Shown here piece by piece: positions 3,417 to 51,943 of a DNA stretch of 57,675 nt. Under the pieces are notes generated by a model, which saw only the letters and a list, made by a program, of their open reading frames with translations, made no database searches and was not told the origin of the DNA. The stretch is from the NCBI RefSeq assembly GCF_002101555.1, contig NZ_LQOL01000018.1:1-57675 (forward strand), in the 5' to 3' direction. The translations under genes were made by a program, and so were the position numbers. Each line of letters starts with the position of its first letter. Within the stretch, counting starts at the first letter, position 1. Origin of the DNA: Mycolicibacterium canariasense (GTDB taxonomy: Bacteria; Actinomycetota; Actinomycetes; Mycobacteriales; Mycobacteriaceae).

Positions 3417-3422
3417 TACTCT
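3417..3422 (+). promoter_or_regulatory. Candidate -10 element for embA
   Basis: TACTCT (overlapping CATACT at 3415-3420) lies eight bases before the GTG at 3431. In this window several genes show TANNNT followed by 6-8 bases and a start codon, consistent with leaderless or near-leaderless transcripts. In M. tuberculosis embAB has a promoter just upstream of embA that mutates in ethambutol resistance, so a promoter here is expected. No convincing -35 box is visible. Confidence 0.4.
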
Positions 3423-3430
3423 TGAGCCTC

Positions 3431-9600: not shown

Positions 9601-9876
9601 GACGTCCCGAAGTACCGGATCACGCCGGACTACAACGCGAAGATGAAGGACACCGACACCTGGCAGGACGGCATCAACGGCGGCCTGCTCGGCATCAGTG
9701 ACCTGCTGCTGCGGGCCCATCTGATGGCGACCTACCTGAACAAGGACTGGGGCCGGGACTGGGGTTCGCTGCGCCGCTTCGAGACCATCGTCGACGCACG
9801 GCCCGCCGACATCGAACTGGGCTCCGCGACACACTCGGGCCTGTACTCCCCCGGCCGGATCCGAATCAAGCCGTAG
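6670..9876 (+). CDS. embB: Arabinosyltransferase B (EmbB), ethambutol target
   Basis: This is the partner of EmbA in arabinogalactan arabinan synthesis and the main ethambutol target. The protein is 1068 residues, with the same plan as EmbA: N-terminal helix, periplasmic domain, catalytic NSSDDGY loop, multiple membrane helices and a C-terminal carbohydrate-binding domain. The ethambutol-resistance region reads [12 protein letters not shown]. Met323 here corresponds to Met306 of M. tuberculosis EmbB, so this position has the susceptible residue. The GTG start at 6670 overlaps the embA stop (GTGA); ATG 6682 is an alternative start. It is followed by a large inverted repeat that separates it from a convergent gene. 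Confidence 0.96.
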
Positions 9877-24400: not shown

Positions 24401-26849
24401 CGGAGAAGTACGCCGCGGCGGCCTCGCCGAGCGACTGTCCCACCACCGCGCCGGGATGGGCGCCGTGATGCTTGAGCAGTTCACCCAGGGCGATCTGGAT
24501 GGCGAAGATCACCGTCTGGACGACCTCGATGGGGTACTCGCAGGTCTCGTTGGTGTAGTCGATGGCGTCGTCGAGGATCAACTCCACGACGGAGTAGCCG
24601 CGCTCGTCCTGGATGTGCGCGTCGACCTTGTTGATCCACTCCGCGAAGACCTCGTTGCGCAGGTAGAGGTCCTTGCCCATCTTGCGGTGCTGCGCGCCGA
24701 AACCGGCCAGCACCCAGACCGGGCCGTTGGTGACGGGCCCGTCGGCGGAGAGCACCAGCGGGCTCTGCTTGCCTTCGGCGATCGCCCGCAGGCCCTTGAC
24801 GGCCTCGTCGTGGTCGTGCGCCAGCACCACCGCGCGGGACCGGCCGTGGTTGCGCCGCGACAGCGACCGGCCGATCGACTCCAGCGACGCGGCGCGGCCG
24901 TCCTCGCTGTCGATCCAGTCGGCCAGTTCAGCCGCGGCGGCCTTCTTCCGGGACGTCAGGAAGCCCGAGATAACCAGCGGCACAATCGGATTTGGCGGTT
25001 CTTTGCCCTCCAGCTCCTGACGGCCGGCCTCGATCAGACGCTGGGCCGCCTCGGTCAGGCCGGGCAGCTCGAAGGAGCCTTCCTCGTAGCTCGGGTACTC
25101 CTGCTCGAACTCGCCGTACTCGTTCATCTGGATGCCGCCGGCGAACTCGGCCGCGGCATCGTCGGACGACTTCTCCTGCACCGCATCGGATTCCGGCTCC
25201 GGTTCGACCAGATCCGAGGGCAGCACCTCACGCAGCACCAGGTGCGCGTTGGCGCCACCGAAGCCGAAGCCCGAGACCCCGGCGACGGCGTGCCCGCTGT
25301 AACGCGGCCAGTCCGAGACGGTGTCGTTGACCTTGAGGTGCTCCTTGTCGAAGTCGATGTAGGGGTTGGGGCCCGCGTAGTTGATGGACGGCGGCAGCTT
25401 GTCGTGCTGCAGCGCCAGCGTCATCTTGGCCAGGCTGGCCGCACCGGCGGCCGACTCCAGGTGTCCCACATTGGATTTCACCGCACCCAGCAGCGCGGGC
25501 TTGTCCGCGGCGCGACCCCGGCCGATGACCCGCCCCAGCGCGTCGGCCTCGATCGGGTCTCCGAGGATGGTTCCGGTGCCGTGCGCCTCGACATAGTCGA
25601 CGACGCGCGGGTCGATACCGGCGTCCTTGTAGGCCTTGCGCAGCACCGCTTCCTGCGCGTCGGGATTCGGCGCCAGCATGCCGTTGGACCGGCCATCGTG
25701 GTTGACCGCGCTGCCCGCGATGACCGCCAGGATCTGGTCGCCGTCGCGGCGGGCGTCGGACACCCGCTTGAGCACCAGCATGCCGCCACCCTCGGAGCGG
25801 GCGTACCCGTCGGCGTCCGAGGAGAACGACTTGATCCGGCCGTCCGGGGCCAGCACGCCGCCGACCTCGTCGAAGCCGATGGTCACCAGCGGGGTGATCA
25901 GTGCGTTCACGCCGCCGACGACGGCGACGTCGGCCTCACCCGAGCGCAGCGCCTGCACACCCTGGTGCGCGGCGACCAGCGAGCTGGAGCAGGCGGTGTC
26001 GACCGACACCGACGGGCCGCGGAAATCGTAGAAGTAGGACACCCGATTGGCGATGATCGCGGTCTGGTTGCCGGTGATGGCGTACGGGTGGGTGACCGTC
26101 GGATCGGCCAGCGACAGGTAGGAGTAGTCGTTGTTGGAGCTGCCGATGTACACCGCGACGTTGCCGCCGCGCAGGCTCGATGCCGGGATCCGGGCGTGCT
26201 CGAGCGCCTCCCAGGTCAGCTCGAGGGCCATCCGCTGCTGCGGATCGATGTTGTCGGCCTCCATCTTCGACAGCGCGAAGAACTCGGCGTCGAACCCCTT
26301 GATATCGGAGAGGTAGCCGCCGCGGGTGCGGGCCTTGGCCACCCGCTCGGCGATCCGCGGCTCACCGAGGAACTCCTCCCAGCGGCCCTCGGGCAGGTCG
26401 GTGATGGCGTCGCGGCCTTCCAGCAGCGCCGTCCACATCTCGGCGGGGGTGTTCATGTCCCCGGGGAAGCGGGTCGCGACACCGACGATGGCGATGTCCT
26501 CCACACCCTCCGGGCGCGACCAGTCCTCGTCCTCGCCGGTGGCGGGCTCGGGTTCGCCTTCGACGATCACCTGGGCCAGCGCCTCGATGGTGGGGTGCCG
26601 GAAGGCCATGGTGGCCGTCACGGTGACCCCGGTGAAGTCCTCGATATCGCTGGCCATCGCCACCGCGTCGCGGGAGGACAGGCCGAGCTCGACCATGGGC
26701 GCCGCGTCGTTGATGCTGTCGGCCGGCTGGCCGGTGGCGTTGGCGATCCAGTTGCGCAGCCAGTCGCGCATCTCGTTGACCGTCAGGTCAGGGCGCACCG
26801 GGCCAGTTTCAGAGTTCTGCGAATTCTCGCTGTTTTCAGTCATTCTCAT
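21495..26849 (-). CDS. pks13: Polyketide synthase Pks13, mycolic acid condensase
   Basis: This type I PKS joins the FadD32-activated meromycolic chain with the carboxylated alpha chain by Claisen condensation. The protein is 1784 residues. The order is ACP1 (phosphopantetheine Ser59 in GLSSRD), ketosynthase with Cys287 in DTACSSSL plus EAHGTGT, acyltransferase with Ser806 in GQSLGE, ACP2 with Ser1263 in GLDSLM, and thioesterase with Ser1580 in GWSLGG. Cys287 falls at the same number as in M. tuberculosis. It is about 50 residues longer than that protein, mostly in the ACP2-TE linker, which contains a duplicated 20-residue unit. ATG 26849 is used; the ATG two codons later is equally possible. 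It lies 50 bases after fadD32. Confidence 0.97.
22664..22757 (-). repeat. Two copies of a 60-bp-period repeat in the Pks13 linker
   Basis: The 34-base segments 22664-22697 and 22724-22757 are nearly identical; both encode [11 protein letters not shown]. The 20-residue period lies at about residues 1364-1403, between ACP2 and the thioesterase. The unit is Pro/Ala-rich, as expected for a flexible linker, and the duplication preserves the frame. Confidence 0.8.
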
Positions 26850-26899
26850 TCACTTTCGCCGCCGTGCGGCCTTGATGACGGGCCGGTTGTGTGCGGGTG

Positions 26900-28792
26900 T
26901 CAGTCAGCTTCGTCGGGGAAGGCGTTGGCGATCTTGCCGCTGCGCAGGCTGCCGTCGAGGTAGGCGGCCCGGCAGGCGGGGCGACCGATCTTGCCGCTGG
27001 AGGTGCGCGGGATCGCGCCGGCGGCGGTGAGCAGCACGTCGCGCACGGTCACGCCGTGACGCACCGCGATGGCGGCCCGGATGTCGTCGGCGATCGGGCC
27101 GACCTCCAGCTTGTGCGAGCCGGGCGCCCGCTCACCGACGATCACCAACTGCTCGGAGGTGTCCTCGGGGTCGAATTTGAGTCCGGCGTGGGCGTTTTCG
27201 AACACCTCGGCCGGCAACTGGTTGGCCGGCACCGAGAACGCCGCGACGAAACCGGTGCGCAGCGCCTTGCTGGCCTCCTGCGCCGAGTACTCCAGATCCT
27301 GCGGGTAGTGGTTGCGGCCGTCGATGATGACGAGATCCTTGACCCGGCCGGTGATGTAGAGGTCGCCGTCGTAGAAGGCACCGTAGTCGCCGGTGCGCAC
27401 CCAGGTGGCGTCGTCGGCCGCGCCCTCGGCGTGCGACGGGTTGGCCCGCGACTTGAGGGTGTTCTGGAACGTCTCGCGGGACTCCTCGGGCTTGCCCCAG
27501 TACCCGGTGCCCATGTTCTGGCCGCTGATCCAGATCTCGCCGATCTGGCCGTCGGGCAGTTCGGTGGCGCTTTCGGCGTCGACGATGACCGCCCATTCAC
27601 CGATGCCGACCTTGCCGGCCGAGGCCTGGGCCACGGCCTTCTCCGAGTCGGCGGGCACCTCGACGATGCTGCCGGTGTTCAGTGCGTCCCGGTCGACGGT
27701 GATGATCTTGGGCTCTTCGGAGGACGGCGTGGTCGACACGAACAGCGTCGCCTCGGCCAGGCCGTAGGACGGCTTGATGGCCTTGGGCGGGAAGCCGAAC
27801 GGGGCGAATGCCTCGTTGAACCGGCGCACGGTGGCCGCTGAGATCGGCTCGCTGCCGTTGAGCACGGCCTTGACGTTGGACAGGTCGACGGTGCCGGCGC
27901 CCTCCTTGGGGACGCCCCGCAATGCCGCGTGGTCGAAGGCGAAGTTGGGCGCCACCGAGATGGTGCCGCCGGTGTCGCCCTCCTTGCGGGCGAGCTCGCG
28001 GATCCAGCGCTCGGGTCGGCGCACGAAGGCCGCCGGCGTCATGAAGGTGAAGTAGTGGCCGATCATCGGGGCCAGCAGCGCGGTGATCAGACCCATGTCG
28101 TGGAAGAACGGCAGCCAGGACAGGCCGCGGTCGCCTTCCTCACCTTCCAGTGCCTCGACGACCTGCAGCACATTGGTGGCCAGGTTCAGGTGGGTGATCT
28201 GCACACCGGTGGGGATGCGGGTCGACCCGGAGGTGTACTGCAGATAGGCGATGGTGGTCTCGTCCGGCTCGTCGGGCTGGACCCAGGTGGCGGCGACGTC
28301 GTCGGGCACCGCGTCGACGGCGATGACGCGCGGCCGCTGGTTGGCCGGGCGGCTGCGGAAGAACTTCCGGACACCCTCGGCGGCGTCTGTGGTGGTCAGG
28401 ATGGCCGACGGATGGCAGTTGTCGAGCACCGCGTGCAGACGGCCGACGTGCCCGGGCTCGGACGGGTCGAACAGCGGAACGGCGATGCGCCCGCCATAGA
28501 GCGCGCCGAAGAAGGCGACGAGGTAGTCCAGGTTCTGCGGGCACAGGATCGCGACCCGGTCACCGGGCTGGGTGACCTGCTGCAACCGGGCGGCGACGGC
28601 TTTGTTGCGGGCGCTGAACTGCGCCCAGGTCAGATCGCGGGCGACACCGTCGCGCTCGGTGGAGAAGTCGAGGAACCGGTAGGCCAGCTTGTCGCCGCGC
28701 ACCTTGGCCCAGCGCTCGACGTGACCGACGATGCTGGCGCCGTCAGGGAACTTGATCTGACCGTCCTTGATGAACGGGTTATGGAACGGCAT
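26900..28792 (-). CDS. fadD32: Long-chain fatty-acyl-AMP ligase FadD32
   Basis: This enzyme activates meromycolic acid as acyl-adenylate and loads it onto the N-terminal ACP of Pks13. It is 630 residues, within the FAAL size range. The adenylate-forming P-loop is [11 protein letters not shown]; the core motifs SYGLAE, TGDYG and [16 protein letters not shown] are present, and the C-terminal SSGKIGRP holds the catalytic lysine. ATG 28792 is chosen because AGGAG lies seven bases upstream; an in-frame TTG precedes it directly. Pks13 starts 50 bases downstream. Confidence 0.97.
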
Positions 28793-28962
28793 CAAACTCT
28801 CCTGTCACAGCACATCGCACGCGGTCGTCACGAGCCCCGGCGATCGTACCGGGGCGCCCGATTCCCCCCTTCGACGACCGCTCGCCGCTCTTAGTTTTCT
28901 CTTAATGTTAGGTGAACGAATGTCGCAGGCCAAATCTGGTTACCCGCGAGTCGCAACGAGAT
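28793..28962. promoter_or_regulatory. culp6-fadD32 intergenic region, probable fadD32 promoter
   Basis: This region has no ORF. It contains an AT-rich block at 28890-28921 that is unusual for this GC-rich DNA, and an inverted repeat CCCCGG/CCGGGG at about 28834-28853 on the path between the two same-strand genes. It probably contains the end of the culp6 transcript and the fadD32-pks13-accD4 promoter. TACGAT on the minus strand near 28848 is a possible -10; I cannot assign a -35. Confidence 0.4.
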
Positions 28963-29976
28963 TCATCCGTGCTTGGGATGCGGTGCGTTCTCCACCAGGT
29001 TGTGGGCCCACTGCTGCGTCCACTGGGTGGCGGTCTGGCCGTCCAGGCTCCAGAACTGGGGCGTGTTGTACAGCGCGTGCACGGGCCCGGCGGTGCTGCC
29101 CAGCAGTGTCTCCAGCGTCTTGGGCAGGTTCCCGACCGAGAACGCCTGCTCCGGCGCGGCACAGATCAGGTCGCCGTTGCCGCAGATCTGGTAGACGCGG
29201 TCGTTGAGCGCGCCGAACCCGCCGTCGCGCGGGCCGGTCATCGCCAGGCCGAGCGCCGACAGCATCGGCACCTCGTGCAGGGTGATCTCGGCACCCTGGC
29301 CGGGCGGGTTGGCCGGCAGGCTCTGGCCCACCCCGTCCTGGCGGCGGCCGTCGGCGATCAACGTCACGCCCAGCACCAGGTCCTGGTCGACGGGGCCGCG
29401 GCCGTTGCCGATATCGGAGGCGATATCGCCGCCGATCACCGCGCCCTGCGAGAACCCGACGATCACGTAGCTGGTGAGCGGGCACTTGTTGTTCATGTCG
29501 GTGAGCGCCTGGATGGCCTTCTTGGTGCCCTCGGCGCGGGAGTCGTTGTAGGACATCTGCCCGTCGGCGGAGAACGGGTTATGGAACTGCGCGGTGTAGG
29601 GCACGGTGTACACCTGCACCCGGTCGGTGCCGAACTGCTGCAGCAGCGGGTTGGTCACGTTGAGCAGCAGCGCCATCGGGAACTGCGTCGGATTGTTCGG
29701 GTCCAGCTGGGGCGAGGACTCCCAGGTGCCGGGGATGGAGAGCACGAAGACGTCCGGGCAGCTGGCGTCCTGGGATTCCGGGCGCGGTTTGCTCGGCGAC
29801 GGCCCCGTGCTGGGGACACCGGACGGCGGCGCGGTGGGCGGGGTGGCCAGCGGCGGGGTCTCGGGCTGACGCAGCCAGACCACCAGGGCGGCGACGATGA
29901 CCGCCACCAGGACGGCGACGGCCGCGGCCGCGGCCACCGCCAGAATCCGGTGTCGTTTGCGGTTGTTGGTCGCCAT
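28963..29976 (-). CDS. Culp6-type cutinase-like serine esterase (Rv3802c family)
   Basis: This 337-residue envelope enzyme belongs to the cutinase-like group; the M. tuberculosis orthologue Rv3802c is essential and has thioesterase/phospholipase activity linked to mycolate metabolism. A single membrane anchor spans residues 10-36, followed by a Pro-rich linker. The nucleophile motif is GFSQGA; the cutinase Asp and His are likely in the region around residues 265-300, with the family cysteines in [14 protein letters not shown]. The ATG is preceded by GGAGCG at rather long spacing. It lies between fadD32 and the antigen 85 genes, as in M. tuberculosis. Confidence 0.93.
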
Positions 29977-30039
29977 GGTCGAAGCGCTCCTCGGTTCGGC
30001 TGAATGTCTTCGGGCGCTGCTGTCCTACCGCCGGGCGGA

Positions 30040-30537
30040 TCAGCAGAGCTGTTCGGTCGCGATGCGAATGTAGTCGGAGGTGGCGGCGTTGACCTCACCC
30101 GCAGGCGGGGCCGCCGAACTGATGTGGGCCTCGCGGACATCGGCGCGGACCAGGGGCAGCACGAAATCCCAGACCGCCTGATCGTTCTGTTTGGCGGCAC
30201 GCGCCTGGCACACGTAGGACCCGATGGTCAGCGCGACCATCTCGTCGGACGGGTGCACGCCGGCCGCCCCGAGCGCGTCCAGGTAGGACTGTTGCTGGGC
30301 CGACATGGGGATGTGTTCGCGGTATCCGCCCGCCGCGCTGGCCGCGGGCGGCGCGATGCTGCCCAACCCGTCGGAATGCCCGGCCGATTGCGAGGCCGGC
30401 AGACCGATCGTGGTGATCATGTCGTCGCTGAACGAGCAGCCGCACACCGCCGCCGCCGTGGAGGCGAGCATCAGCGGGGTCAACACGAGCGCGGGTCGCT
30501 TTGCCAGACCCGCAGACCACCGCCGGTTGCGCTGCAC
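30040..30537 (-). CDS. DUF732 exported protein, possible lipoprotein
   Basis: This 165-residue protein has an N-terminal signal (LVLTPLMLASTAAAV) ending in VCGC, which could be a lipobox. The C-terminal half is a DUF732 domain (QQSYLDALGAAGVHPSDEM, then SYVCQ and a final IATEQLC), a small exported fold common in mycobacteria with two conserved cysteines. GTG 30537 is chosen because a -10 element lies six bases ahead; a longer upstream reading is not supported. It sits between the Culp6 esterase and fbpD, a position with no gene in M. tuberculosis. Function unknown. Confidence 0.75.
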   Translation of the reverse strand: MQRNRRWSAGLAKRPALVLTPLMLASTAAAVCGCSFSDDMITTIGLPASQSAGHSDGLGSIAPPAASAAGGYREHIPMSAQQQSYLDALGAAGVHPSDEMVALTIGSYVCQARAAKQNDQAVWDFVLPLVRADVREAHISSAAPPAGEVNAATSDYIRIATEQLC

Positions 30538-30543
30538 GGCTCC

Positions 30544-30549
30544 ACGGTA
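30544..30549 (-). promoter_or_regulatory. -10 element for a leaderless DUF732 transcript
   Basis: On the minus strand TACCGT precedes GTG 30537 by six bases, the same arrangement as at the MBL and kinase genes. Confidence 0.45.
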
Positions 30550-30586
30550 CCGGCTGTGCGCGCCGGCCTCCGGGGGCCAGATGTCG

Positions 30587-31522
30587 TTAGCGGATCGCGG
30601 CCGACAAATCGCCGGCCAGCGCGGCCAACTGCGGACCCCAGCTGCCCCAGTCGTGCTGCCCACCGGTCGGGAAGTCGAAGTGCCCGTTGCGGCCCCCGAG
30701 TGAGCGGTAATGCGAATAGAACGTGCGGTTACTGCCCTGGGCCTGATCGCAGTAGCCGATCATCGCGGCGGGGTCGCTGCACGTCAGGGTCTGCGGGCTG
30801 AACACCCACAGCCGGGTGTTGTTGTCCACCAACAGCTGTGCGTGCACGTCCGGGTCATGCCACTTCCACCGGCCCAGCTGCGCCGCGCCCCACATGGCCT
30901 GGGTGTTGACGCCACCGAACTGGGCCATGCCCGCCGTGATGGCGCCGTTGAGGAAGGTGTTGGACGGCGTCAGGAAGCCCGACATGGAGCCGGCGTAGCG
31001 GAACCGGTCCGGGTGGAACTCGGCCAGCGTGATGGCCGCGGTACCGCCCTGGGCGGCGCCGACGATGCCGTGCCCGTTGGGCGCCAGGCCCTTGTTGGCG
31101 GCCAGCCAGTTGGGCAGCTCATCGGTGAGGAAGGTCTCCCACTGCTTGCTGCCGTCCATCTCCCAGTTGGTGTAGAGGCTGAATGCCCCGCCGGCCGGAG
31201 CGGCCACCGAGATGCCCTTACCGGCCAGGGTGTTGAACGCGCCGGTGCCGACCCAGTTGCTCACATCGGGTCCGGCGTTGAAGGCGTCGAGCAGGTACAC
31301 CGCGTGCGGGCCACCGGCCTGAAAGGCCACCGGGATGTCGCGGCCCATGGCCGCCGACGGCACCATGAGGTACTCGATGCCGTCGGCCCTGGCTGGAGTG
31401 TCCACCGCGCCCGACGCCGACCACAGGCCCATCGCCAGCAACACCGCGAAGGTCGCCTGCAGGGTCTTGCGGATGGCCGAAGGCAGCGCGTGGTTTCCGT
31501 CGCTTCGCTCGCCCAGCCTCAT
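30587..31522 (-). CDS. fbpD: MPT51 (FbpD), non-catalytic antigen 85 homologue
   Basis: This 311-residue secreted protein has the antigen 85 alpha/beta-hydrolase fold. The nucleophile elbow reads VGAAQGG in place of GLSMAG, so the catalytic serine is absent, as in M. tuberculosis MPT51, which is thought to bind extracellular-matrix components or carbohydrate instead of transferring mycolate. A signal peptide ends near ARADG. Signature segments are [20 protein letters not shown] and AGSMSGF. ATG 31522 has GAGGTGG four bases upstream; ATG 31534 is also in frame. Confidence 0.93.
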   Translation of the reverse strand: MRLGERSDGNHALPSAIRKTLQATFAVLLAMGLWSASGAVDTPARADGIEYLMVPSAAMGRDIPVAFQAGGPHAVYLLDAFNAGPDVSNWVGTGAFNTLAGKGISVAAPAGGAFSLYTNWEMDGSKQWETFLTDELPNWLAANKGLAPNGHGIVGAAQGGTAAITLAEFHPDRFRYAGSMSGFLTPSNTFLNGAITAGMAQFGGVNTQAMWGAAQLGRWKWHDPDVHAQLLVDNNTRLWVFSPQTLTCSDPAAMIGYCDQAQGSNRTFYSHYRSLGGRNGHFDFPTGGQHDWGSWGPQLAALAGDLSAAIR

Positions 31523-31620
31523 TGCCCACCTCATCTTGATCGAATATCCCCCACCACCGCGTTGTAGTGAATCACATCACTGCGGCGCGGTGCTTTCGAA
31601 ACGGTCCGGAAACGACCGAC

Positions 31621-31646
31621 GGCGGCGACCCCGAAGGATCGCCGCC
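31621..31646 (-). terminator. Hairpin terminator downstream of fbpA
   Basis: GGCGGCGA (31621-31628) and TCGCCGCC (31639-31646) form a perfect eight-pair stem around a ten-base loop containing TTCG on the minus strand. It lies 38 bases after the antigen 85A stop. The U-tract is weak, as is usual in mycobacteria. Confidence 0.6.
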
Positions 31647-31683
31647 GCCCGTCTTCTCGTTTGTTTGCCGGCAGGCCCGCGGA

Positions 31684-32694
<1,011 letters not shown>

Positions 32695-32809
32695 TTACCT
32701 ATCCCATCTGTCGTGTGCCGCACCCGGTCGGTGTGCGCCGGTCCGGGCCGCATCGCCCGTGTAGTCAACCACAAGTCTGTGTGACTTCTCTCTTCCGACG
32801 AATGCCCGC

Positions 32810-33934
<1,125 letters not shown>

Positions 33935-33960
33935 TTACGCCACCCGCAAAACCACGTGCG

Positions 33961-35952
33961 CTACGGACCGGTGGCCGGCATCCCGGTGTACGGCGGATTC
34001 TTCGCCGGCGGCGCCTGCAGACCGCACCGGTACAGCTCATAGAGCGGGACCCGGTCTATCCGGTAACTGCCGAACTGCAGCGCATGGGTGAGGTTGGAGA
34101 TGAACAGCCGGGGCGTCAGCTTGCCTCGCACCGAGTTCAGGATCACTTCGGTCTCCGGACACTTCAGCGCCACCTCGGCCTGGGCGATCCAGTCCTCGTC
34201 CAGGTAGGCCGGGATGTACGGACGTTCCTTCAGGAAAGGTCCTTCGGCGACCGCCCAGTCCGGGAACAGGTTCTTGTCGTGACCGATGCGGGCGTCCTCC
34301 AGCCGGGCGGTGTGCGCCGCCAGGGTGTTCACCAGACCGATCTGGTCGATGACCCGGACGTCGAGGCCGACGTTCATCCCCAGCATGCCCATGTTGGTGA
34401 AAAAGACCGTGTGCGGCCCGGTTTCGCCGTTGCGGTAGGGCTTGTCCGGCGGCGGCGGGATGGCCGGGACCACGTCCCAGCGGTCATAGTCGCCGGACGG
34501 CAGCAGCAGCGCGCCGTCGGGGGTGTTGTTGATGGCGGTGAGCACCGCGCGCATCCGCGGGTAGTCCAGGTAGTCGGCCGCGGTCAGCGGGTGGGCGTGG
34601 CCGGTGGCCTGGGCGTAGAACCGGCGTTCGTCGACGATGCCGGAATAGGTGACCCGGGTGGCGTCGGCGCCCATTCCCGGCGAATTCGCCGCCCACAGTG
34701 ACCATCCCGCGATCGCCAGCCACAACACACTGGTCGCCCCCGCCAGCAGATAGCCGGTCCGGCGGCTGACCTTGGTCTCGTCGGGCACCCTGACCGGGAT
34801 CACCGCCACCGGCGCGAGCATGCAGAACAGCGCGGTGAGCAACACCCGCCCGTGCATGAAGTCACCGCCTTGGCGCACCCAGTACACGCCTTGCAGCAGG
34901 CCGCTTCCGACGATGAAAACGACCACCGCCGTGGGGTTTTGCACCAGCCTGGCCAGGGATCGACCGGCGGCCCCGGACCGGATGGGCCCGATGGTCCAGG
35001 GATGCGACCGGCCGCGCACCAGCACCACCGCCAGCAGGATCACCAGCAGCAACGGCAGCCACAGCAGATAGGGCCGGTTGAAGTTGGTCAGATACTCGAA
35101 ACCCTGGGCCCACTTCGAACCCGAGGCGTCCTTGGCGATGGCCGTCTGGGGCACCGCCAGGCCGTAATACCCCATCCGAAAGATCTGATATCCCACCGGA
35201 AGTGCACCGCCGGCCGCGACGATCAGCGCTCGCCGCCGCCACCGCGGCTCGGCCACCACCATCATCACCAGCGCCAGCCCGCCGATGAGCGCCAGTTCCG
35301 GACGGACCAGCACGCTCAGGCCGGCCACGCAGGCCAGCGATCCCAGGAACACCGGGCCCTGCCGCCGCCCCTCGGGCAGCCTGGGCGCCTGCGACCAGCA
35401 CACCATCAGCCACCACAACAGGCCGAGATAGGCGAGCACCAAACCGTTTTCCAGACCCGACGTGGCGAAGTCGCGGGCCGGTGGCACCGCGATATAGACG
35501 AGCGCGCCCGCCGGCAGCAGCACCGCGGCCCGGCCCTGCAGGCCGGGCGCGTACAACCGGCCGGTCCCGAGCATCAACAGCACCACGCCGGCCACCGAGA
35601 GCACCAGTGCCAGGGTCAGCGCGACGTACTCCAGCCGGACCGGACCGCTGATCCAGCTGACCACGTAGATCAGATACGTCCACAGGGTGGAGGTGTTGGA
35701 CTCCACCCGTTCCCCGGCATTGAAGACGGGGCCGTTGCCGGCCAACAGGTTGCGCACGGTGCGCAACACGATCAGCCCGTCGTCGGCGATCCAGCGTCGC
35801 TGCCATGCCCCCCAGCCGAACAGGCCGGCCACCACCAGCACCGACAACCACAGGCTGATCCGCACCGACACGCTGTAGCGGAACGACGGCCAGCCGGACA
35901 GGCGGGTCGCCGCGGCGCGGCCGGCTCGGTCAGCCGAAGTAGACAGCGGCAC
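33961..35952 (-). CDS. aftB: Terminal beta-(1>2)-arabinofuranosyltransferase AftB
   Basis: This polytopic GT-C enzyme caps arabinan with the beta-1,2-linked arabinose that receives mycolates. The protein is up to 663 residues, with about ten membrane helices in the N-terminal two-thirds and a periplasmic C-terminal domain. The catalytic acid pair is in WIADDGLIVLR (Asp57-Asp58). Conserved segments include ANSPGMG, TYSGIVDERRFYAQATGH and FTNMGMLGMNVG, all matching Rv3805c. GTG 35952 overlaps ubiA by 23 bases. GTG codons at 35871 or 35865 would give about 635 residues, nearer the M. tuberculosis length, and match its MVRVSLWLS start. Confidence 0.95.
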   Translation of the reverse strand: MPLSTSADRAGRAAATRLSGWPSFRYSVSVRISLWLSVLVVAGLFGWGAWQRRWIADDGLIVLRTVRNLLAGNGPVFNAGERVESNTSTLWTYLIYVVSWISGPVRLEYVALTLALVLSVAGVVLLMLGTGRLYAPGLQGRAAVLLPAGALVYIAVPPARDFATSGLENGLVLAYLGLLWWLMVCWSQAPRLPEGRRQGPVFLGSLACVAGLSVLVRPELALIGGLALVMMVVAEPRWRRRALIVAAGGALPVGYQIFRMGYYGLAVPQTAIAKDASGSKWAQGFEYLTNFNRPYLLWLPLLLVILLAVVLVRGRSHPWTIGPIRSGAAGRSLARLVQNPTAVVVFIVGSGLLQGVYWVRQGGDFMHGRVLLTALFCMLAPVAVIPVRVPDETKVSRRTGYLLAGATSVLWLAIAGWSLWAANSPGMGADATRVTYSGIVDERRFYAQATGHAHPLTAADYLDYPRMRAVLTAINNTPDGALLLPSGDYDRWDVVPAIPPPPDKPYRNGETGPHTVFFTNMGMLGMNVGLDVRVIDQIGLVNTLAAHTARLEDARIGHDKNLFPDWAVAEGPFLKERPYIPAYLDEDWIAQAEVALKCPETEVILNSVRGKLTPRLFISNLTHALQFGSYRIDRVPLYELYRCGLQAPPAKNPPYTGMPATGP

Positions 35953-36847
35953 CGACTGTTCCGATCAACGCCAGGGCGAGCAGCTGCAGCACGCGGTCAT
36001 GCAGGGCGATGTCCTCGGGTTCGCCCGCGTCACCGCCGTCGATGTCGACGGCGTAGCGCAGGATCGCGATGGTGAACGGGATGATGGACACGGCCCACCA
36101 GGAGGCCGAGCCGCCGTCGCGCTCGAAGGCGAACAGCCCGTAGCAGAGCACCACTGCGGTGGCCGACAGCGTCCAGACGAAGCGCAGATACGAACTGGTG
36201 TAGCTCTCCAGCGATTTGCGGATCTTGGCGCCGGTGCGTTCGGCCAGCTGTAGTTCGGCGTAGCGCTTGCCGGCCGCCATGAACAGCGAACCGAAGGCCA
36301 TCACCAGCAGGAACCACTGGGACAGCTGGATGTCGGTCGCCGCACCGCCGGCGATGGCCCGGATCAGGTAGGCCGAGGACACGATGCAGATGTCCAGCAC
36401 CGCTTGATGTTTCAGCCCGAAACAGTAGGCCAGTTGGATGCCGATGTAGACGGCGATGACGACGGCCAGGCTGGGACTGACGACATAGGAGATGACCAGC
36501 GCGGCCACCCCCAGCACGACGGCCAGGCCGTAGGCCACCGACTCCGGGACCACCCCGGCCGCGATCGGGCGGAATCGTTTGGTCGGGTGCTGGCGGTCGG
36601 CCTCGACATCACGGGAGTCGTTGATCAGGTAGATGCACGAGGCGGCCATGGAGAACACCACGAAGGCCACCGCGACGCGGGAGGCCAGGAAACCGTAGTC
36701 GTAGTGCACGTCGGTACCCAGTGCCGCCAGCGGTGCGGCCAGCACCAGCACGTTCTTGACCCACTGACGGGGACGCAGCGCCTTGATCAGCCCGCTCGCC
36801 AGGTTCTTCGGCGGGCCCAGAGTCGATTCCGGCGCTCCGTCACTCAT
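35930..36847 (-). CDS. ubiA: Decaprenyl-phosphate phosphoribosyltransferase (UbiA/DppR synthase)
   Basis: This UbiA-superfamily membrane prenyltransferase makes decaprenyl-phosphoryl-5-phosphoribose, the first committed step to the arabinose donor. It is 305 residues with about nine helices. The first Asp-rich motif is NDSRDVEADRQHP; the second region is in AGKRYAEL with the following acidic residues. It is an ethambutol-resistance locus in M. tuberculosis (Rv3806c). The ATG shares one base with the upstream PAP2 stop (TGATG). Confidence 0.95.
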   Translation of the reverse strand: MSDGAPESTLGPPKNLASGLIKALRPRQWVKNVLVLAAPLAALGTDVHYDYGFLASRVAVAFVVFSMAASCIYLINDSRDVEADRQHPTKRFRPIAAGVVPESVAYGLAVVLGVAALVISYVVSPSLAVVIAVYIGIQLAYCFGLKHQAVLDICIVSSAYLIRAIAGGAATDIQLSQWFLLVMAFGSLFMAAGKRYAELQLAERTGAKIRKSLESYTSSYLRFVWTLSATAVVLCYGLFAFERDGGSASWWAVSIIPFTIAILRYAVDIDGGDAGEPEDIALHDRVLQLLALALIGTVGAAVYFG

Positions 36848-37368
36848 CAGTTGCCCGCCTTCTTGTCAGCGATGACCTGAACCGCTTTGGCGGTGGCAAG
36901 TCCCACCGCCGCTCCGGTGAGCACGTCCGTCGGGTAGTGCACGCCGAGTACCAAGCGCGACAACGCCATCGGGGGCACCAGCAGCCACGGCAACCGCGAG
37001 CCGGTGGCCCGGCCGATCAGCACGGCGGCCGCGGTGGTCGAGGTGGCATGCGCGGACGGGAAGCTCAGCCGGCTGGGTGTACCGACGTTGACGGCGATCG
37101 CCGGGTGGTGTGGGCGTTCGCGTTTGACGACGCGTTTGATCAGCACCGCCGCCGCGTGTGCGGCGAAGGCGCCGATACCGGCGGCCAGCCAGGCGCGCCG
37201 GTGCCGCGGCTGCAGCGCCGCGCCCAGGGCGGCGACGCCGACCCAGCCGGCGCTGTGCTCACCGAAATGCGAAAGAGCGCGCGCGGCCGGAAGCACTCCA
37301 GGCCGGCCGGCCAGCGTGGTCTGCACCACCACCAGCGCGGTCTCCTCGCGCGTCAGGTCACCGGCCAT
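36847..37368 (-). CDS. PAP2-family phosphatase (Rv3807c type)
   Basis: This 173-residue membrane phosphatase has all three PAP2 motifs: KRVVKRERP, PSAHAT, and SRLVLGVHYPTD. By position and the known role proposed for Rv3807c it removes the 5-phosphate from decaprenyl-phosphoribose 5-phosphate, between UbiA and the DprE1/DprE2 epimerase. Its ATG is one base after the glfT2 stop, and its own stop overlaps the ubiA start, so it is strongly coupled. Confidence 0.9.
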   Translation of the reverse strand: MAGDLTREETALVVVQTTLAGRPGVLPAARALSHFGEHSAGWVGVAALGAALQPRHRRAWLAAGIGAFAAHAAAVLIKRVVKRERPHHPAIAVNVGTPSRLSFPSAHATSTTAAAVLIGRATGSRLPWLLVPPMALSRLVLGVHYPTDVLTGAAVGLATAKAVQVIADKKAGN

Positions 37369-37369
37369 C

Positions 37370-40776
<3,407 letters not shown>

Positions 40777-46001: not shown

Positions 46002-47561
46002 GTGCAGGTCACGAGTGTGGGGCACGCAGGCTTCCTGATCGATACGTCGGCAGGCAGCATCTTGTGCGACCCCTGGGTCAACCCCGCGTATTTCGCCTCC
46101 TGGTTCCCCTTCCCGGACAACAGCACGTTGGACTGGGACGCCCTCGGGAACTGCGACTACCTCTACGTCAGCCACCTGCACAAGGACCACTTCGATCCGG
46201 CGACCCTGCGCGACCACGTCAACAAGGACGCCGTCGTGCTACTGCCGGACTACCCGGTGCCCGATCTGCGCCGCGAGTTGGAGGCCCTCGGGTTCCACCG
46301 TTTCGTCGAGACCACCGATTCGGTGAAGCACACCGTCAGCGGCCCCAAGGGCGAGCTGGACATCATGATCATCGCGCTGCGCGCTCCCGCCGACGGCCCG
46401 ATCGGCGATTCAGGCCTGGTGGTCTCCGACCGCGTCACCACCGCGTTCAACATGAACGACGCGCGGCCGATCGATCTGGACATGCTGGCCCGCGAGTTCG
46501 GCCATATCGACGTGCACATGCTGCAGTACTCCGGCGCCATCTGGTACCCGATGGTCTACGACATGCCGGCCCGGGCCAAGGAGGCCTTCGGCATCCAGAA
46601 GCGGCAGCGCCAGATGGACCGCTGCCGCCAGTACATCGCCCAGGTCGGTGCCACCTGGGTGGTGCCGTCGGCCGGGCCGCCGTGTTTCCTGGACCCGGAG
46701 CTGCGCGACCTGAACGACGACCACGGCGATCCGGCCAACATCTTCCCCGACCAGGTGGTGTTCCTGGACCAGCTGCGCACCCACGGTCACGATGGCGGGC
46801 TGCTGATGATCCCCGGCTCGACGGCGGATTTCACCGGCGCACAACTGGTTTCGCTGACCCACCCGGTCGACGACCCGGAGTCCATCTTCACCACCGGCAA
46901 GGCCGCCTACATCGAGGCATACGCGCAGCGGATGGCCCCGGTGCTGGCGGCGGAGAAGGCCGGTTGGGCACCGGCCGACGGAGAATCGCTGCTGGAGCCG
47001 CTGCGAGCCCGCTTCGAACCGATCATGGCGCAGTCCGATCAGATCTGCGACGGGATCGGGTACCCCGTGGAGCTGCGGCTGCCCGGGGCGTCGCGCACCG
47101 AGACCGTCGTGCTGGACTTCCCGAAACGGGCAGTGCGCGAGCCGATCCCGGATGAGAAGTTCCGGTACGGCTTCGAGATCCCGGCGCAGTTGGTGCGGAC
47201 GGTGGTGCGCGACAACGAACCCGACTGGGTGAACACCATCTTCCTGTCCACCCGGTTCCGGGCCTGGCGGGTCGGCGGCTACAACGAATACCTCTACACG
47301 TTCTTCAAATGCCTCACCGACGAACGGATCGCCTACGCGGACGGCTGGTTCGCCGAGGCGCACGACGACAGCGCCTCCACCGTGCTCGACGGATGGGAGA
47401 TCCAGCGCCGCTGCCCGCACCTGAAGGCGGATCTGTCCAAATTCGGTGTGGTGGAAGGCAACACGCTGACCTGCAATCTGCACGGCTGGCAGTGGAATCT
47501 GGAGAACGGCCGCTGCCTGACCGCCAAGGGGCACCAGCTCAGGAGCGCCAGGACGTCATGA
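46002..47561 (+). CDS. MBL-fold hydrolase fused to a Rieske iron-sulfur domain (Rv3818 family)
   Basis: This 519-residue protein has an UlaG-like metallo-beta-lactamase domain (HLHKDHFDP signature near residue 58) and a C-terminal Rieske 2Fe-2S domain with CPH and CNLH ligands separated by 17 residues, plus the HGWQWNLENGRC ending. The combination recalls CMP-Neu5Ac hydroxylase-like and other MBL-Rieske enzymes that perform redox chemistry on a sugar or lipid; the substrate of the mycobacterial protein is unknown. GTG 46002 has AAAGGG five bases upstream. The stop overlaps the next gene (ATGA). Confidence 0.9.
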   Translation: MQVTSVGHAGFLIDTSAGSILCDPWVNPAYFASWFPFPDNSTLDWDALGNCDYLYVSHLHKDHFDPATLRDHVNKDAVVLLPDYPVPDLRRELEALGFHRFVETTDSVKHTVSGPKGELDIMIIALRAPADGPIGDSGLVVSDRVTTAFNMNDARPIDLDMLAREFGHIDVHMLQYSGAIWYPMVYDMPARAKEAFGIQKRQRQMDRCRQYIAQVGATWVVPSAGPPCFLDPELRDLNDDHGDPANIFPDQVVFLDQLRTHGHDGGLLMIPGSTADFTGAQLVSLTHPVDDPESIFTTGKAAYIEAYAQRMAPVLAAEKAGWAPADGESLLEPLRARFEPIMAQSDQICDGIGYPVELRLPGASRTETVVLDFPKRAVREPIPDEKFRYGFEIPAQLVRTVVRDNEPDWVNTIFLSTRFRAWRVGGYNEYLYTFFKCLTDERIAYADGWFAEAHDDSASTVLDGWEIQRRCPHLKADLSKFGVVEGNTLTCNLHGWQWNLENGRCLTAKGHQLRSARTS

Positions 47562-47893
47562 CCACGGCGGTGTCGTACGACGACGGGCTGATCCAACTGG
47601 ATCGCCAGGCCCTGACGCTGCGGCGCTACCACTTCCCGTCCGGGACGTCGAAAATCATCCCGCTGCAGGCGATCCGGGGTTACAAGGCGGAGTCGCTGGG
47701 CCTGGTCTTCGACCGGTTCCGGATCTGGGGGCCGTCGGACGACCCGCGCCGCTGGCTGCCGCTGGACGTGTGGCGGCCGATCAAGTCCACCCTGATCGTG
47801 CTCGACGTGCCCGGCACCCGGCCCAGCCCGGCGTTCACGCCGCTGCGGGTCAAGGAGTTCGTGTCGGTGTTGGACGAGCTGCTGCAGCAGTAG
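47558..47893 (+). CDS. Conserved protein coupled to the MBL-Rieske gene (Rv3819 family)
   Basis: This 111-residue soluble protein has no signal or membrane segment. It reads as an all-beta, PH-like fold (GLIQLDRQALTLRRY, GYKAESLGLVFDRFRIWGP), but I do not assign a family with confidence. The ATG overlaps the preceding stop by four bases, which argues for a partner role with the Rieske protein. It ends six bases from the convergent thiocyanate hydrolase operon. Confidence 0.75.
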   Translation: MTTAVSYDDGLIQLDRQALTLRRYHFPSGTSKIIPLQAIRGYKAESLGLVFDRFRIWGPSDDPRRWLPLDVWRPIKSTLIVLDVPGTRPSPAFTPLRVKEFVSVLDELLQQ

Positions 47894-47899
47894 TGACGG

Positions 47900-48244
47900 T
47901 CAGGCCTCCAGCCGGGCCCGCACCGCTGCCAGCCGCTGCGCCAGCTCGGCCTCCCCGATCACCCCGCGCGCCAGCAGCGAATGGGCCAGTGACATCAGCT
48001 GGTTCTCCGGGTACGGCAGGTCTGCGTACACCGTCGCCGACAGCGCATCCTCCTCGTCCCGGCGCTCCTTGAAGTTCGGGAGGTCGGCCTCGTCGCACTC
48101 GGCGCGGTCGAGCGCGTCGCACAGCCCGTCCAGGCTCGTCTTCCAGGGCGGAACCGGGTTCTCCACACCGTATTTCGCGGCCATCCGCGACCACACCTGA
48201 TTGCGCTCGACGATGGCGGCCAGCGGCTCGGGCGCGGTGCTCAT
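47900..48244 (-). CDS. P15K-like activator of thiocyanate hydrolase
   Basis: This 114-residue protein resembles nitrile hydratase and thiocyanate hydrolase activator proteins, which are beta-subunit N-terminus-like metallochaperones. Visible features are PPWKTSLDGLCDALDRA and the helical ending ENQLMSLAHSLLARGVIGEAEL, corresponding to the YY-W-LA-LL-G-L part of the family. In Thiobacillus a small gene, P15K, next to the subunits is needed for cobalt insertion into the gamma subunit. The ATG overlaps the gamma stop (ATGA). A truncated beta-type subunit is the alternative. Confidence 0.65.
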   Translation of the reverse strand: MSTAPEPLAAIVERNQVWSRMAAKYGVENPVPPWKTSLDGLCDALDRAECDEADLPNFKERRDEEDALSATVYADLPYPENQLMSLAHSLLARGVIGEAELAQRLAAVRARLEA

Positions 48245-48945
48245 GCGCCGTTGGGGTGGATCGCGGGCCGGGTCTCCACGACGACGTTGGTCGTCACGCC
48301 CGCCTTGGGCAGCGCGACGCCGATCAGACAGTCGCGGGTGACGATCTCGGCGAGCTGGTCCTCAGTCCAGCCGTCGGTGCCCTCGGGGCGCAGCGGCATC
48401 ACCATGAAGCGATGCTTCTGGTTCGAATCCTGCACGCGCACTTCGATGTCGTCACCCAGATAGAGGCCGAACTCGGAGAGCACCTGACGGGGCCAGCGCA
48501 CCAGCCGGCGCCGGTAGTTGGGGGTGCGGTACCACTCGGGCGAGTTGCCCAGGATCGGTCTGGGATAGCAGGAACACAGCGCGCACACGATCACGTGGTG
48601 CACGGTCGGGGTGTCCGCCAGGATCTCGAAGGCGGTGAAGTCACTGGGCGTGCCGAACCCGGTCGGTTCCAGCCAGTCGACCCCCACCTCCTTGCTGGCG
48701 GTCATCGGTTCGGCCAGCGCCAGCGCCTTGAAGTCGGGATCCAGCCAGGCGCGCGCCACCAGTCGGGCCGCGGGGGTCGGCCCGATCTGCTCGGCGAATT
48801 CGGTGAACCGGCGGTGCTCCTCGGCGGTGAAGATGCCCTTCTCGATGCACAGCTCGCGCAGGGCGATCTCGAGCACCTCGAAGTCGGTGATCTCGTCGAC
48901 CATCGGCTTCACCGTGCGGTCGTGGTCATGGTCGTGGTCGTGCAT
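48241..48945 (-). CDS. Thiocyanate hydrolase gamma subunit (nitrile hydratase alpha family)
   Basis: This 234-residue catalytic subunit has the metal-claw motif Cys121-Ala-Leu-Cys124-Ser-Cys126, whose two inner-cluster cysteines are normally oxidised around cobalt in this family. Flanking sequence (YPRPILGNSPEWYRTPN, RLVRWPRQVL, PEGTDGWTEDQLAEIV) fits thiocyanate hydrolase gamma better than ordinary nitrile hydratase alpha, and so does the N-terminal HDHDHDHD tract. The reaction would be thiocyanate to carbonyl sulfide and ammonia. The residue after the first Cys is Ala, where Co-type enzymes have Thr. The ATG shares one base with the stop of the fused beta-alpha gene. Confidence 0.85.
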   Translation of the reverse strand: MHDHDHDHDRTVKPMVDEITDFEVLEIALRELCIEKGIFTAEEHRRFTEFAEQIGPTPAARLVARAWLDPDFKALALAEPMTASKEVGVDWLEPTGFGTPSDFTAFEILADTPTVHHVIVCALCSCYPRPILGNSPEWYRTPNYRRRLVRWPRQVLSEFGLYLGDDIEVRVQDSNQKHRFMVMPLRPEGTDGWTEDQLAEIVTRDCLIGVALPKAGVTTNVVVETRPAIHPNGA

Positions 48946-49784
48946 CAGGCGCCTCGCAACCAGTGTTCGGGGATCTCGGTTCGCAGGGTGTCGGTCGGGG
49001 ACCCGGTGTAGTCGTCCCACAGGTCGGCCTGGTTGAACTGCACCACGTAGAACCACTCCGGCTTGGCATCGGAGCGGGCCCAGGTCTCGTCCTCGGCGGC
49101 CGGGCTCTCGTAGGCGACGACGGCGATCTCGCCTTCGGCGCCGCGGCAGTACTCGGGCGTGCGGGTGTAGAACAGCACCGGCAGTTCGTCGCGCACCACC
49201 ACGCGGTCGCCGACCGTGAACTTGGGGTCACCGGCCTGGCCGGCGTACACCTGTGGGTCACCCTTGCCGACGGCGTGGATGTGGTGCTCGTTGCGCGGGA
49301 CCTGCGAGCCGTCCCCCTCGCCCTTGGGCTCGGCCCGCAACTGTTGGCCGGCCAGGCCGTCGGCATAGCGGTCGCGCACCTCGATCATCCGCTCGGTGAG
49401 TTCGGTGAGGCCGATGTGGTGTTTCTCGATCAGCACCCGCGCGACGGACAGCAGCCACCGGCCGTAGTACGGGAAGCCTTGGTAGACGGCGCGTCCCACG
49501 TCGACGTTGCCGATCCGGCGGCGCTCCTCGGACAGCCAGATGCCGCGCCAGGCGAGCACTTCGCACATGACATAGGTCATGTGCTCCCAGTACTCGTAGT
49601 CCTTGTTGACGTAGCGCGTCGGGGCGTCGGGTTCGCCCCCGACGTCGTGCACCGGTTTGGTCAGCGCGACGATCCGCCCGTGGTCCATCAAGTCGGGATA
49701 GGGCGCGTCCGGGATCTCGGGAAAGGCCGATTTCAACCGGCCGACCAGATCCAGTTGTGCAGCGCGTTCGGCGGCCGTACTCAT
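48945..49784 (-). CDS. Fused thiocyanate hydrolase beta-alpha subunit (nitrile hydratase beta family)
   Basis: This is a 279-residue protein. Residues about 1-150 resemble the thiocyanate hydrolase beta subunit (HDVGG, WEHMTYVMCE, LAWRGIW, QGFPYYGRWLLS). Residues about 165-279 resemble the alpha subunit, an SH3-like barrel (KFTVGDRVVVRDELP, FYTRTPEYCRGAEG, ESPAAEDETW, QADLW). In Thiobacillus these are separate genes; nitrile hydratase beta has the same two parts joined. The linker is about residues 150-165. ATG 49784 has GAGGGGGAA eight bases upstream; the frame is open to 49829 without a better start. Confidence 0.82.
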   Translation of the reverse strand: MSTAAERAAQLDLVGRLKSAFPEIPDAPYPDLMDHGRIVALTKPVHDVGGEPDAPTRYVNKDYEYWEHMTYVMCEVLAWRGIWLSEERRRIGNVDVGRAVYQGFPYYGRWLLSVARVLIEKHHIGLTELTERMIEVRDRYADGLAGQQLRAEPKGEGDGSQVPRNEHHIHAVGKGDPQVYAGQAGDPKFTVGDRVVVRDELPVLFYTRTPEYCRGAEGEIAVVAYESPAAEDETWARSDAKPEWFYVVQFNQADLWDDYTGSPTDTLRTEIPEHWLRGA

Positions 49785-49892
49785 CCGCGATTCCCCCTCA
49801 GCCAACGGCAGGGCCATGCTCGCGATCAAGTACAGCGCACATCGCGGCGCCGCGTGGGCAGAACCGCACCGATTGCTCGGCGGACGCTCCGC

Positions 49893-50693
49893 TCAGCGCA
49901 CCTTTTGGCGCAACTCGGAGTACGCGTCGGACGCGGTGTCATACACCCGGACCACCGCCTCGTCGCCCGGCGACAGATAGGTCGACTCGCCCAGCGGGGT
50001 GTAGCGGGTGGCGCCGATCCCGATGAGCACGTGCTCGGGATGCCCGGAGGCCACCATCAGTGCGCCGACGTCCTCCAGCGGTGTGTCCGGGGCGCCCTTT
50101 TGGTTGGCCAGCCGTTCGGTGATCCAGTCCAGCAGCACCTCGCCGTAGTACGAGTAGCCCAGCAGCGGGCTGTCCACCCCGTACTCGTGCTCCTGACCGT
50201 CGGCGGTGTTCAGGTAGCACACCAGCCGCATGGTGGCCGTCGGGCCGTCCGGGGTGAGGTCGTGGGCCTCGAAGAACTGGCGCGCAACACCTTTGGAGGC
50301 GGGGCCCCAGTTCTTCTTGTGGCTGATCTTCGGTGCGCCCGGGCGCCGGATGGAGCAGTCGTTGAACGCGCCGAGCGCGAACGGGAGCAACGACACCACG
50401 GTGTCGCCCTGCCAGCGCACCTCGCAGGCCAGTCCGACCTCGGGCTCGATCTGGAGATTCAGCGGGCTGTCACTGGCAGGCAGGGCGATCTCGTCGTGCG
50501 ACAGCGGGAACTCACCGAGGAAGGTGTCGCTGCCCGGCGCGTACCACGGGAAGATGCCTTTCGGGGCGTTCCCGACGGCTGCCACGTTGGTGAAATCGAC
50601 TGCTTCCCCGGCCTGTTCGAGATGACCGGCGAAGTTGCCCGCCACCCCGAACCCGAACCAGTTCCGCAGCTCCGCATCGTCGAGTTCGATCAC
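49893..50693 (-). CDS. Conserved protein of unknown function (DUF5718-like)
   Basis: This 266-residue soluble protein starts with [20 protein letters not shown] and contains [10 protein letters not shown] and [13 protein letters not shown] associate it with the DUF5718 family, but with limited certainty. No catalytic motif is obvious. GTG 50693 overlaps the serS stop by four bases, so it is cotranscribed with serS; it ends 108 bases before the fused beta-alpha gene. A link to thiocyanate metabolism is not shown. Confidence 0.65.
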
Positions 50694-51943
50694 GCTGTCA
50701 GCACCTCCGTACCGAGATAGGGCACCAGCGCGGCGGGCACCCGGACACTGCCGTCGGGCTGCTGGTGGTTCTCCAGGATCGCGACCAGCCACCGGGTGGT
50801 GGCCAGGGTGCCGTTGAGCGTGGCGGCGATCTGCGGCTTGCCGTCGTCGTCGCGGTAACGGGTGGACAGCCTGCGGGCCTGGAACGTCGAGCAGTTCGAC
50901 GTCGAGGTGAGCTCGCGGTAGGTCCCCTGGGTCGGCACCCAGGCCTCGCAGTCGTACTTGCGCGCGGCCGACGAGCCCAGATCGCCCGCAGCGACGTCGA
51001 TCACCCGGTAGGGCACCTCGATGGCGGCCAGCATCTCCCGCTGCCAGGCCAGCAGCCGCTCGTGCTCGGCCTCGGCGTCCTCGGGCTTGCAGTAGACGAA
51101 CGCCTCGACCTTGTCGAACTGGTGCACGCGGATGATGCCGCGGGTGTCCTTGCCGTAGCTGCCTGCCTCGCGCCGGAAGCAGGACGACCAGCCGGCGTAG
51201 CGCAGCGGCCCGCCGGACAGGTCCAGGATCTCGTCGGCGTGATAGCCGGCCAGCGGCACCTCCGAGGTGCCCACCAGGTACAGATCGTCGTCGTCGAGGT
51301 GGTAGATCTCGTCGGCGTGCGCGCCGAGGAATCCGGTACCGGCCATCACCTCCGGCCGCACCAGCACCGGCGGGATCATCAAGGTGAACCCGTTGGCGGT
51401 GGCCAGCCGCACCGCGAGTTGCAGCAGGCCCAGTTGCAGCAGCGCGCCCTGGCCGGTGAGGAAGTAGAACCGCGAGCCCGACACCTTGGCGCCGCGCTCC
51501 ATGTCGATCAGCCCCAGCGCCTCGCCGAGCTCGAGATGATCCTTGGGCGAGTCGATGACCGGCGGATCACCGACGGTGTCCAGCACGACGAAGTTGTCCT
51601 CGCCGCCGGCGGGCACCCCGTCCACGATCACGTTGGCGACGGCCAGATGCGCGGCGGTGAAGGCACTCTCGGCCGTTGCCTGCGCGGCTTCGGCGGCCTT
51701 GACCTCCTCGGCGAGTTGCTTGGCGCGCTCGAGCAGGGCCGGCCGCTCCTCGGGGGAGGCCTTGCCCACCGACTTGCTGGCCGTCTTCTGTTCGGCACGG
51801 AGATTGTCGGCGGCCGAGATGGCGGCGCGGCGGGCGGTGTCCGCATCCAGCAGCGCATCCACCAAGCCGGGGTCCTCGCCGCGGGCGCGCTGTGAGGCAC
51901 GCACCCGGTCCGGTTCGTCACGCAGCAGCTTGAGGTCGATCAC
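50690..51943 (-). CDS. serS: Seryl-tRNA synthetase
   Basis: This class II aminoacyl-tRNA synthetase is 417 residues. An N-terminal coiled-coil arm covers about residues 30-100 (ADNLRAEQK to [10 protein letters not shown]). The catalytic core has motif 2 [14 protein letters not shown] and motif 3 [15 protein letters not shown]. The GTG start at 51943 has TAGGGT seven bases ahead and no ribosome site, so a leaderless message is likely; longer readings to 52486 lack homology. It corresponds to Rv3834c. Confidence 0.97.

Follow-up and report, generated by a model that had tools for sequence, protein, structure and literature searches.

Thiocyanate hydrolase (SCNase; EC 3.5.5.8) of Thiobacillus thioparus, represented by structures 2dd4 and 2zzd, is assembled from separate alpha, beta and gamma chains, of which gamma carries the metal motif, an arginine following it and an N-terminal His-Asp tract. 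An activator of this enzyme, P15K, is named in a title cited in PMC3511329. Two-chain cobalt nitrile hydratases combine a single beta chain, which accounts for both halves, with a CxLCSC-bearing alpha chain and a small activator encoded downstream. A subunit fusion is also on record in this superfamily, in the nitrile hydratase of Monosiga brevicollis, where the consulted part of PMC2603476 describes beta as joined to the metal subunit. Here we analyze a 57,675-nucleotide stretch of Mycolicibacterium canariasense DNA (the window; contig NZ_LQOL01000018.1, C18 in our numbering of the 6.76 Mb host genome), in which a three-gene operon on the minus strand very probably encodes an enzyme of the SCNase family composed of one beta-alpha chain and a gamma subunit that bears the metal motif, along with a separate chaperone-like small protein; thiocyanate hydrolysis is the predicted reaction of the enzyme and nitrogen scavenging its likely role. 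The gamma subunit shares the metal motif, the arginine and the His-Asp tract with its T. thioparus counterpart, and it is a gene of its own, unlike the metal subunit of M. brevicollis. Beta and alpha, which are separate chains in T. thioparus, lie here in a single frame. The NCBI model for the gamma subunit sets no three-chain requirement.

Assignment to the SCNases is carried by the gamma subunit, which clears the equivalog model TIGR03887 (386.7 bits, cut-off 291.45) and stays under that of nitrile hydratase alpha, TIGR01323 (201.2 bits, cut-off 249.85). Its top match among solved structures is SCNase gamma 2dd4_C (E 1.2e-108, 365 bits), with nitrile hydratases scoring at most 189 bits. A gamma tree places it inside the SCNase clade with 100/99 support, and forcing it together with the nitrile hydratase rows is rejected (p-AU, the p value of the approximately unbiased test, 0.001). 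Family models, best solved relatives and tree thus concur in classing the window enzyme as a true SCNase. The first-pass annotation of the window had preferred thiocyanate to nitrile as substrate and had named gamma phylogeny as the check; with gamma branching inside SCNase and not within nitrile hydratase alpha, that preference stands.

The same conclusion is consistent with conservation at the metal site, which we followed in 109 fused rows comprising the window, 80 named loci, 26 further genomes and two plasmids. These rows were picked for a fused frame of at least 270 aa, the named-locus and genome sets may overlap, and the named loci are the best 80 of at least 356 relatives, hence close kin. 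The gamma motif reads CALCSCYPRP in the window, and C121, C124, S125, C126 and R129 are invariant in 109/109 rows. The R129 column holds arginine in 2dd4_C and tryptophan in 3vyg_C (position 136, hand-counted), and tryptophan again in all six two-chain nitrile hydratases included in the tree, which form a clade apart. Two or more HD/HE repeats occur within the first 25 gamma residues of 101 of the 109 rows. Here the earlier annotation has to be corrected, for it had taken the His-Asp tract as a pointer to thiocyanate: similar tracts end the activators of the two nitrile hydratase family operons of the same genome, so the tract cannot tell thiocyanate from nitrile. An SCNase relative could still prefer another small substrate, such as cyanide, cyanamide, a small nitrile or isothiocyanate. 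The parts of the literature consulted report no assay of a mycobacterial member, and a difference in substrate could underlie the occurrence of both fused and split types within one family. We nonetheless judge this alternative unlikely in view of the 68% identity between the window's gamma and the T. thioparus gamma segment and of the metal motif and R129 being kept in every fused row.

The first gene of the operon has both of its parts among the SCNases. Residues 10-145 match the SCNase beta chain 2dd4_B (E 5.1e-39, 137 bits) and residues 164-277 the alpha chain 2dd4_A (E 2.2e-31, 112 bits), whereas beta chains of nitrile hydratases with solved structures score at most 44.6 bits and the cut-off of the nitrile hydratase beta model TIGR03888 is missed (76.2 vs 152.2 bits). 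The stretch between the two matched parts is 18 residues long; in T. thioparus the beta tail leaves 10 residues unmatched and the alpha head 11, or 21 in all, so that the join is nearly seamless. This is as first annotated: one 279-aa protein holds HDVGG (46-50) and YYGRWLL (106-112) together with GDRVVV and FYTRTPEY (205-212), is followed with a one-base overlap by the CxLCSC gamma gene, itself overlapping the activator-like gene by four bases, and unites beta and alpha in one gene. In nitrile hydratase beta, Arg52 and Arg149 hold the oxidised cysteines of the metal site; R88 and R208 of the fused chain align with these residues of the Pseudomonas putida enzyme (hand-counted) and are invariant in all 109 fused rows. 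Ratios of non-synonymous to synonymous substitution rates (dN/dS) against six relatives are 0.06-0.28 in the fused gene and 0.02-0.23 in gamma, and selection on both genes is purifying. Foldseek returns 2dd4_A as the top match of the fused-chain model (E 2.5e-12), a match that is reliable for the alpha half only.

One trait of the fused chain is of the nitrile hydratase type, namely the presence of both Pfam beta domains, N and C, in one protein. An ordinary nitrile hydratase, with the 279-aa gene as a long beta, the second gene as alpha and thiocyanate as no substrate, would account for this chain architecture, and the Pfam models matched by both halves and by the second gene are indeed nitrile hydratase models. 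Such an identity appears very improbable to us, since both equivalog cut-offs are missed, gamma lies inside the SCNase clade with the opposite grouping rejected, and two more operons of the latter family are encoded elsewhere in the genome.

The fusion is real, is not unique to the window and is common in its bacterial family. Beta and alpha share one frame in 80/80 named loci, in 27 of the 28 order-sample genomes that pass the SCNase gamma cut-off (the window's own included) and in 2/2 plasmids, the single split locus being L084 of genome G250. Those 28 genomes come from an order sample of 298 and all belong to the window's family; a phylum sample yields six of 346, each of them also in the order sample. 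Within a family sample of 401 genomes, in which up to seven candidates were scored per genome, 113 match the G250 gamma at E 1e-60 or better, with one match each. Of these, 77 are of the window type (311-347 bits to the G250 gamma), with all 27 examined being fused, and 36 are of the G250 type (at least 429 bits), with all 30 examined (L125-L154) being split, often with an ATGA overlap. The fused form is therefore no singularity, and no genome among the 113 shows both types by its one E 1e-60 match. A class sample contributes 21 matches in 394 genomes, and the one outside the family (genome G536, locus L175) groups with three-gene nitrile hydratases.

Beyond the actinobacteria, Pseudomonadota were covered through plasmids and a protein search, and two alphaproteobacterial plasmids, from Azospirillum ramasamyi and Roseomonas marmotae, bear fused SCNases. 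As in the window, a fused chain (283 aa) precedes scnC and an activator-like match; the fused chain is only 38-40% identical to that of the window, and genes annotated as CbtA/CbtB or HupE/UreJ adjoin. Some JGI proteins are already labelled 'thiocyanate hydrolase subunit alpha/thiocyanate hydrolase subunit beta'. No fused SCNase is described in the titles and abstract openings listed by literature searches, and PMC10098168, which builds an SCNase tree, gave no word starting with 'fus' in a search of its text. Two irregular copies were seen in the course of these surveys. Locus L060 (Mycolicibacterium litorale F4) has a frame shift in the last part of alpha, near the 3' end, reflecting mutation or sequencing error, and at G052:C1:1825330-1825719, from the window's genus, SCNase gamma is matched only by three pieces that overlap in part and lack one stretch, likely a decayed copy.

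The second, G250 type has the order beta, alpha, gamma, activator-like gene, and the gamma of G250 itself also clears TIGR03887 (402.6 bits). It differs from the window type in having separate genes for beta and alpha (141 and 98 aa in G250), in a gamma only about 66% identical to that of the window and in falling, in the gamma tree, outside the fused sequences. Taken with T. thioparus, where alpha and beta are likewise separate, this type, with its same gene order and frequent four-base overlap, gives some footing to the idea that the fused gene encodes a precursor, or reflects a sequencing join, with alpha and beta separate at maturity. The recurrence of a single frame across named loci, genomes and plasmids, together with the fact that nitrile hydratase beta functions as one chain, leaves this idea with very little probability in our estimate, though the chain may be cleaved after translation.

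For the history of chain number we used trees whose rows were hand-picked for spread, and which are limited by long branches and few proteobacterial rows. In a larger gamma tree (17 fused, 15 split and 9 nitrile hydratase rows), the SCNases form one group at 100/99, with the exception of L175. The split T. thioparus sequence joins 15 fused rows (97/92), inside the fused plasmid forms, and the second, split actinobacterial type lies outside both the window gamma and T. thioparus, its 13 rows grouping weakly (81/77). The place of T. thioparus is kept in a concatenated tree (98/96), where the second split type does not resolve as one group, and in a beta-alpha tree the split Thiobacillus betas pair with the fused P0247 (258 aa) at 98/95. 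A single clade of all split forms is rejected in five tests (p 0.019, 0.029, 0.044, 0.007 and 0.008), while a single clade of all fused forms is not (p-AU 0.118, 0.21, 0.146, 0.063 and 0.080); L175 was omitted from the later split test, and the last concatenated tree excludes both L154 and L175. On the best trees, chain number changed at least twice inside SCNase, and with a single fused clade unrejected either direction of change is possible. The window enzyme had been pictured as an intermediate between the two families, a picture not supported by the position of its gamma inside SCNase and alongside three-chain T. thioparus. A re-splitting of the T. thioparus enzyme from a fused form is favoured but unproven. 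More broadly, and as a tentative proposal that we hold to be possible rather than probable, chain number in SCNase may be fluid, the three-chain T. thioparus enzyme may derive by re-splitting from a two-chain fused enzyme, and the fusion may be independent of that in nitrile hydratase beta.

The third gene was assigned by its position, its size and a faint resemblance to the N-terminal domain of beta (E 0.00049; 20.6 bits against a Pfam cut-off of 21.5); in some loci the protein is 36-43% identical to parts of the fused chain. The accessible text of PMC3511329 lists five features of self-subunit-swapping chaperones of the NhlE and P14K type, four of which are found here: a gene just downstream, beta placed before the metal subunit, a mass under 17 kDa and weak similarity to beta. 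The fifth, lack of a metal-binding motif, is probably present as well, as the 114-aa protein contains two cysteines and one histidine, with no CxxC seen by eye in its sequence. An activator match lies 3' of gamma on the same strand in 80/80 named loci, 27/28 order-sample genomes and 2/2 plasmids, the sole exception, L093, being an inverted piece at a contig end. Among named organisms, Mycolicibacterium sp. J2 is nearest at the locus, with a gamma 99% identical, followed by M. arenosum, with one 98% identical. Locus L004 is collinear with the window across all 6.7 kb, whereas DNA similarity to the M. arenosum locus (L005) is limited to 49785-47900 (87.5%), with nothing outside at E 1e-10, and no neighbouring gene family in flanks of up to 3 kb is common to more than 12 of the 80 loci. 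By these comparisons the operon travels as one unit.

The mechanism that we propose would use a cobalt centre to hydrolyse thiocyanate, with carbonyl sulfide and ammonia as products; the part of PMC5745022 consulted gives carbonyl sulfide as the SCNase product. Gamma would bind Co(III) through C121, C124 and C126, two of these cysteines being oxidised, and R88 and R208 of the fused chain would hold this oxidised pair in the way that their nitrile hydratase counterparts do. With four chaperone features found and the fifth probable, gamma swapping is the likely route of cobalt loading: the small protein would load the metal by swapping gamma into the fused chain. Since this chain stands in the position of nitrile hydratase beta, the enzyme would be built from two kinds of chain and not three. 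The most likely role is nitrogen scavenging from thiocyanate. In the data available from PMC4617892, M. smegmatis MSMEG_6266 and MSMEG_6267, annotated as SCNase beta and gamma, are up 3.68- and 3.42-fold on nitrogen limitation, and in those from PMC11001197 a PII mutant on nitrate has them up 2.37- and 2.35-fold.

Several observations weigh against this interpretation. The fusion in M. smegmatis is deduced from consecutive locus tags; the adjacency of the pair, with no alpha gene in the tables, fits it. Scored with the M. smegmatis motif as given in the consulted part of PMC3662644, a GlnR box is not enriched in the 250 bases upstream, at least seven of the eight letters being found in 11/107 loci and in 137/1070 shuffles. 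Of 108 loci, four earlier pattern scans over 400 bases had picked out 5, 10, 3 and 12, where shuffled sequences gave means of 1.1, 2.65, 0.65 and 8.7; these scans carry no claim because too few loci are involved. No carbonyl sulfide hydrolase was recognised among the three beta-carbonic anhydrases of the genome, a weak test that used the sequence pattern HTDCGM and compared one of the three with solved structures. The predicted structures are poor, with a mean predicted local distance difference test score (pLDDT) of 58.3 for the fused chain and 46.7 for gamma, and we make no assembly claims from either model. Finally, the arginine after the motif also occurs in the three-gene operons L117, L120 and L175, and in L119 as YPRM; the nitrile hydratase alpha model is passed by three of these, L117, L119 and L120. 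Arg129 had been considered as the sole marker of SCNase and was dropped, given that three-gene nitrile hydratases carry the arginine too.

All SCNase structures that were matched have the sequence of the three-chain enzyme from Thiobacillus, some in mutant form, and yet the window type, fused wherever examined, is the commoner one in the family sample. Fused and split types within one family constitute a natural comparison of the cost or gain of a chain break, in a metalloenzyme whose assembly is thought to require subunit swapping. The operon also points to a thiocyanate route induced by nitrogen limitation, and to a possible source of carbonyl sulfide, in mycobacteria, which the part of PMC5745022 consulted presents otherwise as consumers of this gas.

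The features of the operon are collected in Table 1. The fused gene opens with ATG at 49784 and its stop codon ends at 48945. A scan of 47500-50800 for sigma-70 promoters found none, and an Rfam scan across the window gave no match.

Table 1. Coordinates of the SCNase operon and of its parts within the window
Feature	Coordinates	Strand	Properties and basis
Fused beta-alpha chain of SCNase	48945..49784	-	279 aa, 31.6 kDa; Pfam NHase_beta_N + NHase_beta_C
Beta-type segment, residues 10-145	49350..49757	-	alignment to SCNase beta
Junction, residues 146-163 (18 residues)	49296..49349	-	limits of the two matches, lengths of the chains
Alpha-type SH3-like segment, residues 164-277	48954..49295	-	2dd4_A alignment, Foldseek
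Gamma subunit, predicted cobalt-binding motif	48241..48945	-	234 aa, 26.5 kDa; TIGR03887, 2dd4_C
Metal site CALCSCYPR (C121, C124, S125, C126) and R129	48559..48585	-	invariant, 109/109 rows
His-Asp tract of gamma	48919..48942	-	start of gamma
Activator-like (self-subunit-swapping chaperone-like) gene	47900..48244	-	114 aa, 12.55 kDa; position, size, weak beta N-terminal similarity

Around the operon, the protein encoded at 46002-47561, which adjoins it, has metallo-beta-lactamase-like, SCP2-like (Rv3818 family) and Rieske domains and is common only to L004 among the loci compared, and a DUF5718 protein at 49893-50792 lies on the same strand between seryl-tRNA synthetase and the operon. The two further nitrile hydratase family operons of the genome, L001 (C60:3694) and L002 (C63:62042), have activators with His-Asp-rich ends, and the genes beside L002 are putative cobalt transporters CbtA/CbtB. 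The operons L117, L119, L120 and L175 are nitrile-hydratase-like, each combining an alpha-type gene with two small genes of SH3-like or beta-like type, and are hosted by a sphingomonad, a cyanobacterium, a rhizobium and an actinobacterium of another family; an annotated aquaporin gene adjoins L120 and a nickel/cobalt transporter is found near L117. Elsewhere in the window, 3422-9876 and 21495-40707 hold mycobacterial cell-wall genes, which encode two arabinosyltransferases, galactofuranosyltransferase 2, UDP-galactopyranose mutase, a polyketide synthase of ketosynthase-acyltransferase-thioesterase make-up, a cutinase-like protein, an esterase and an AMP-binding ligase.

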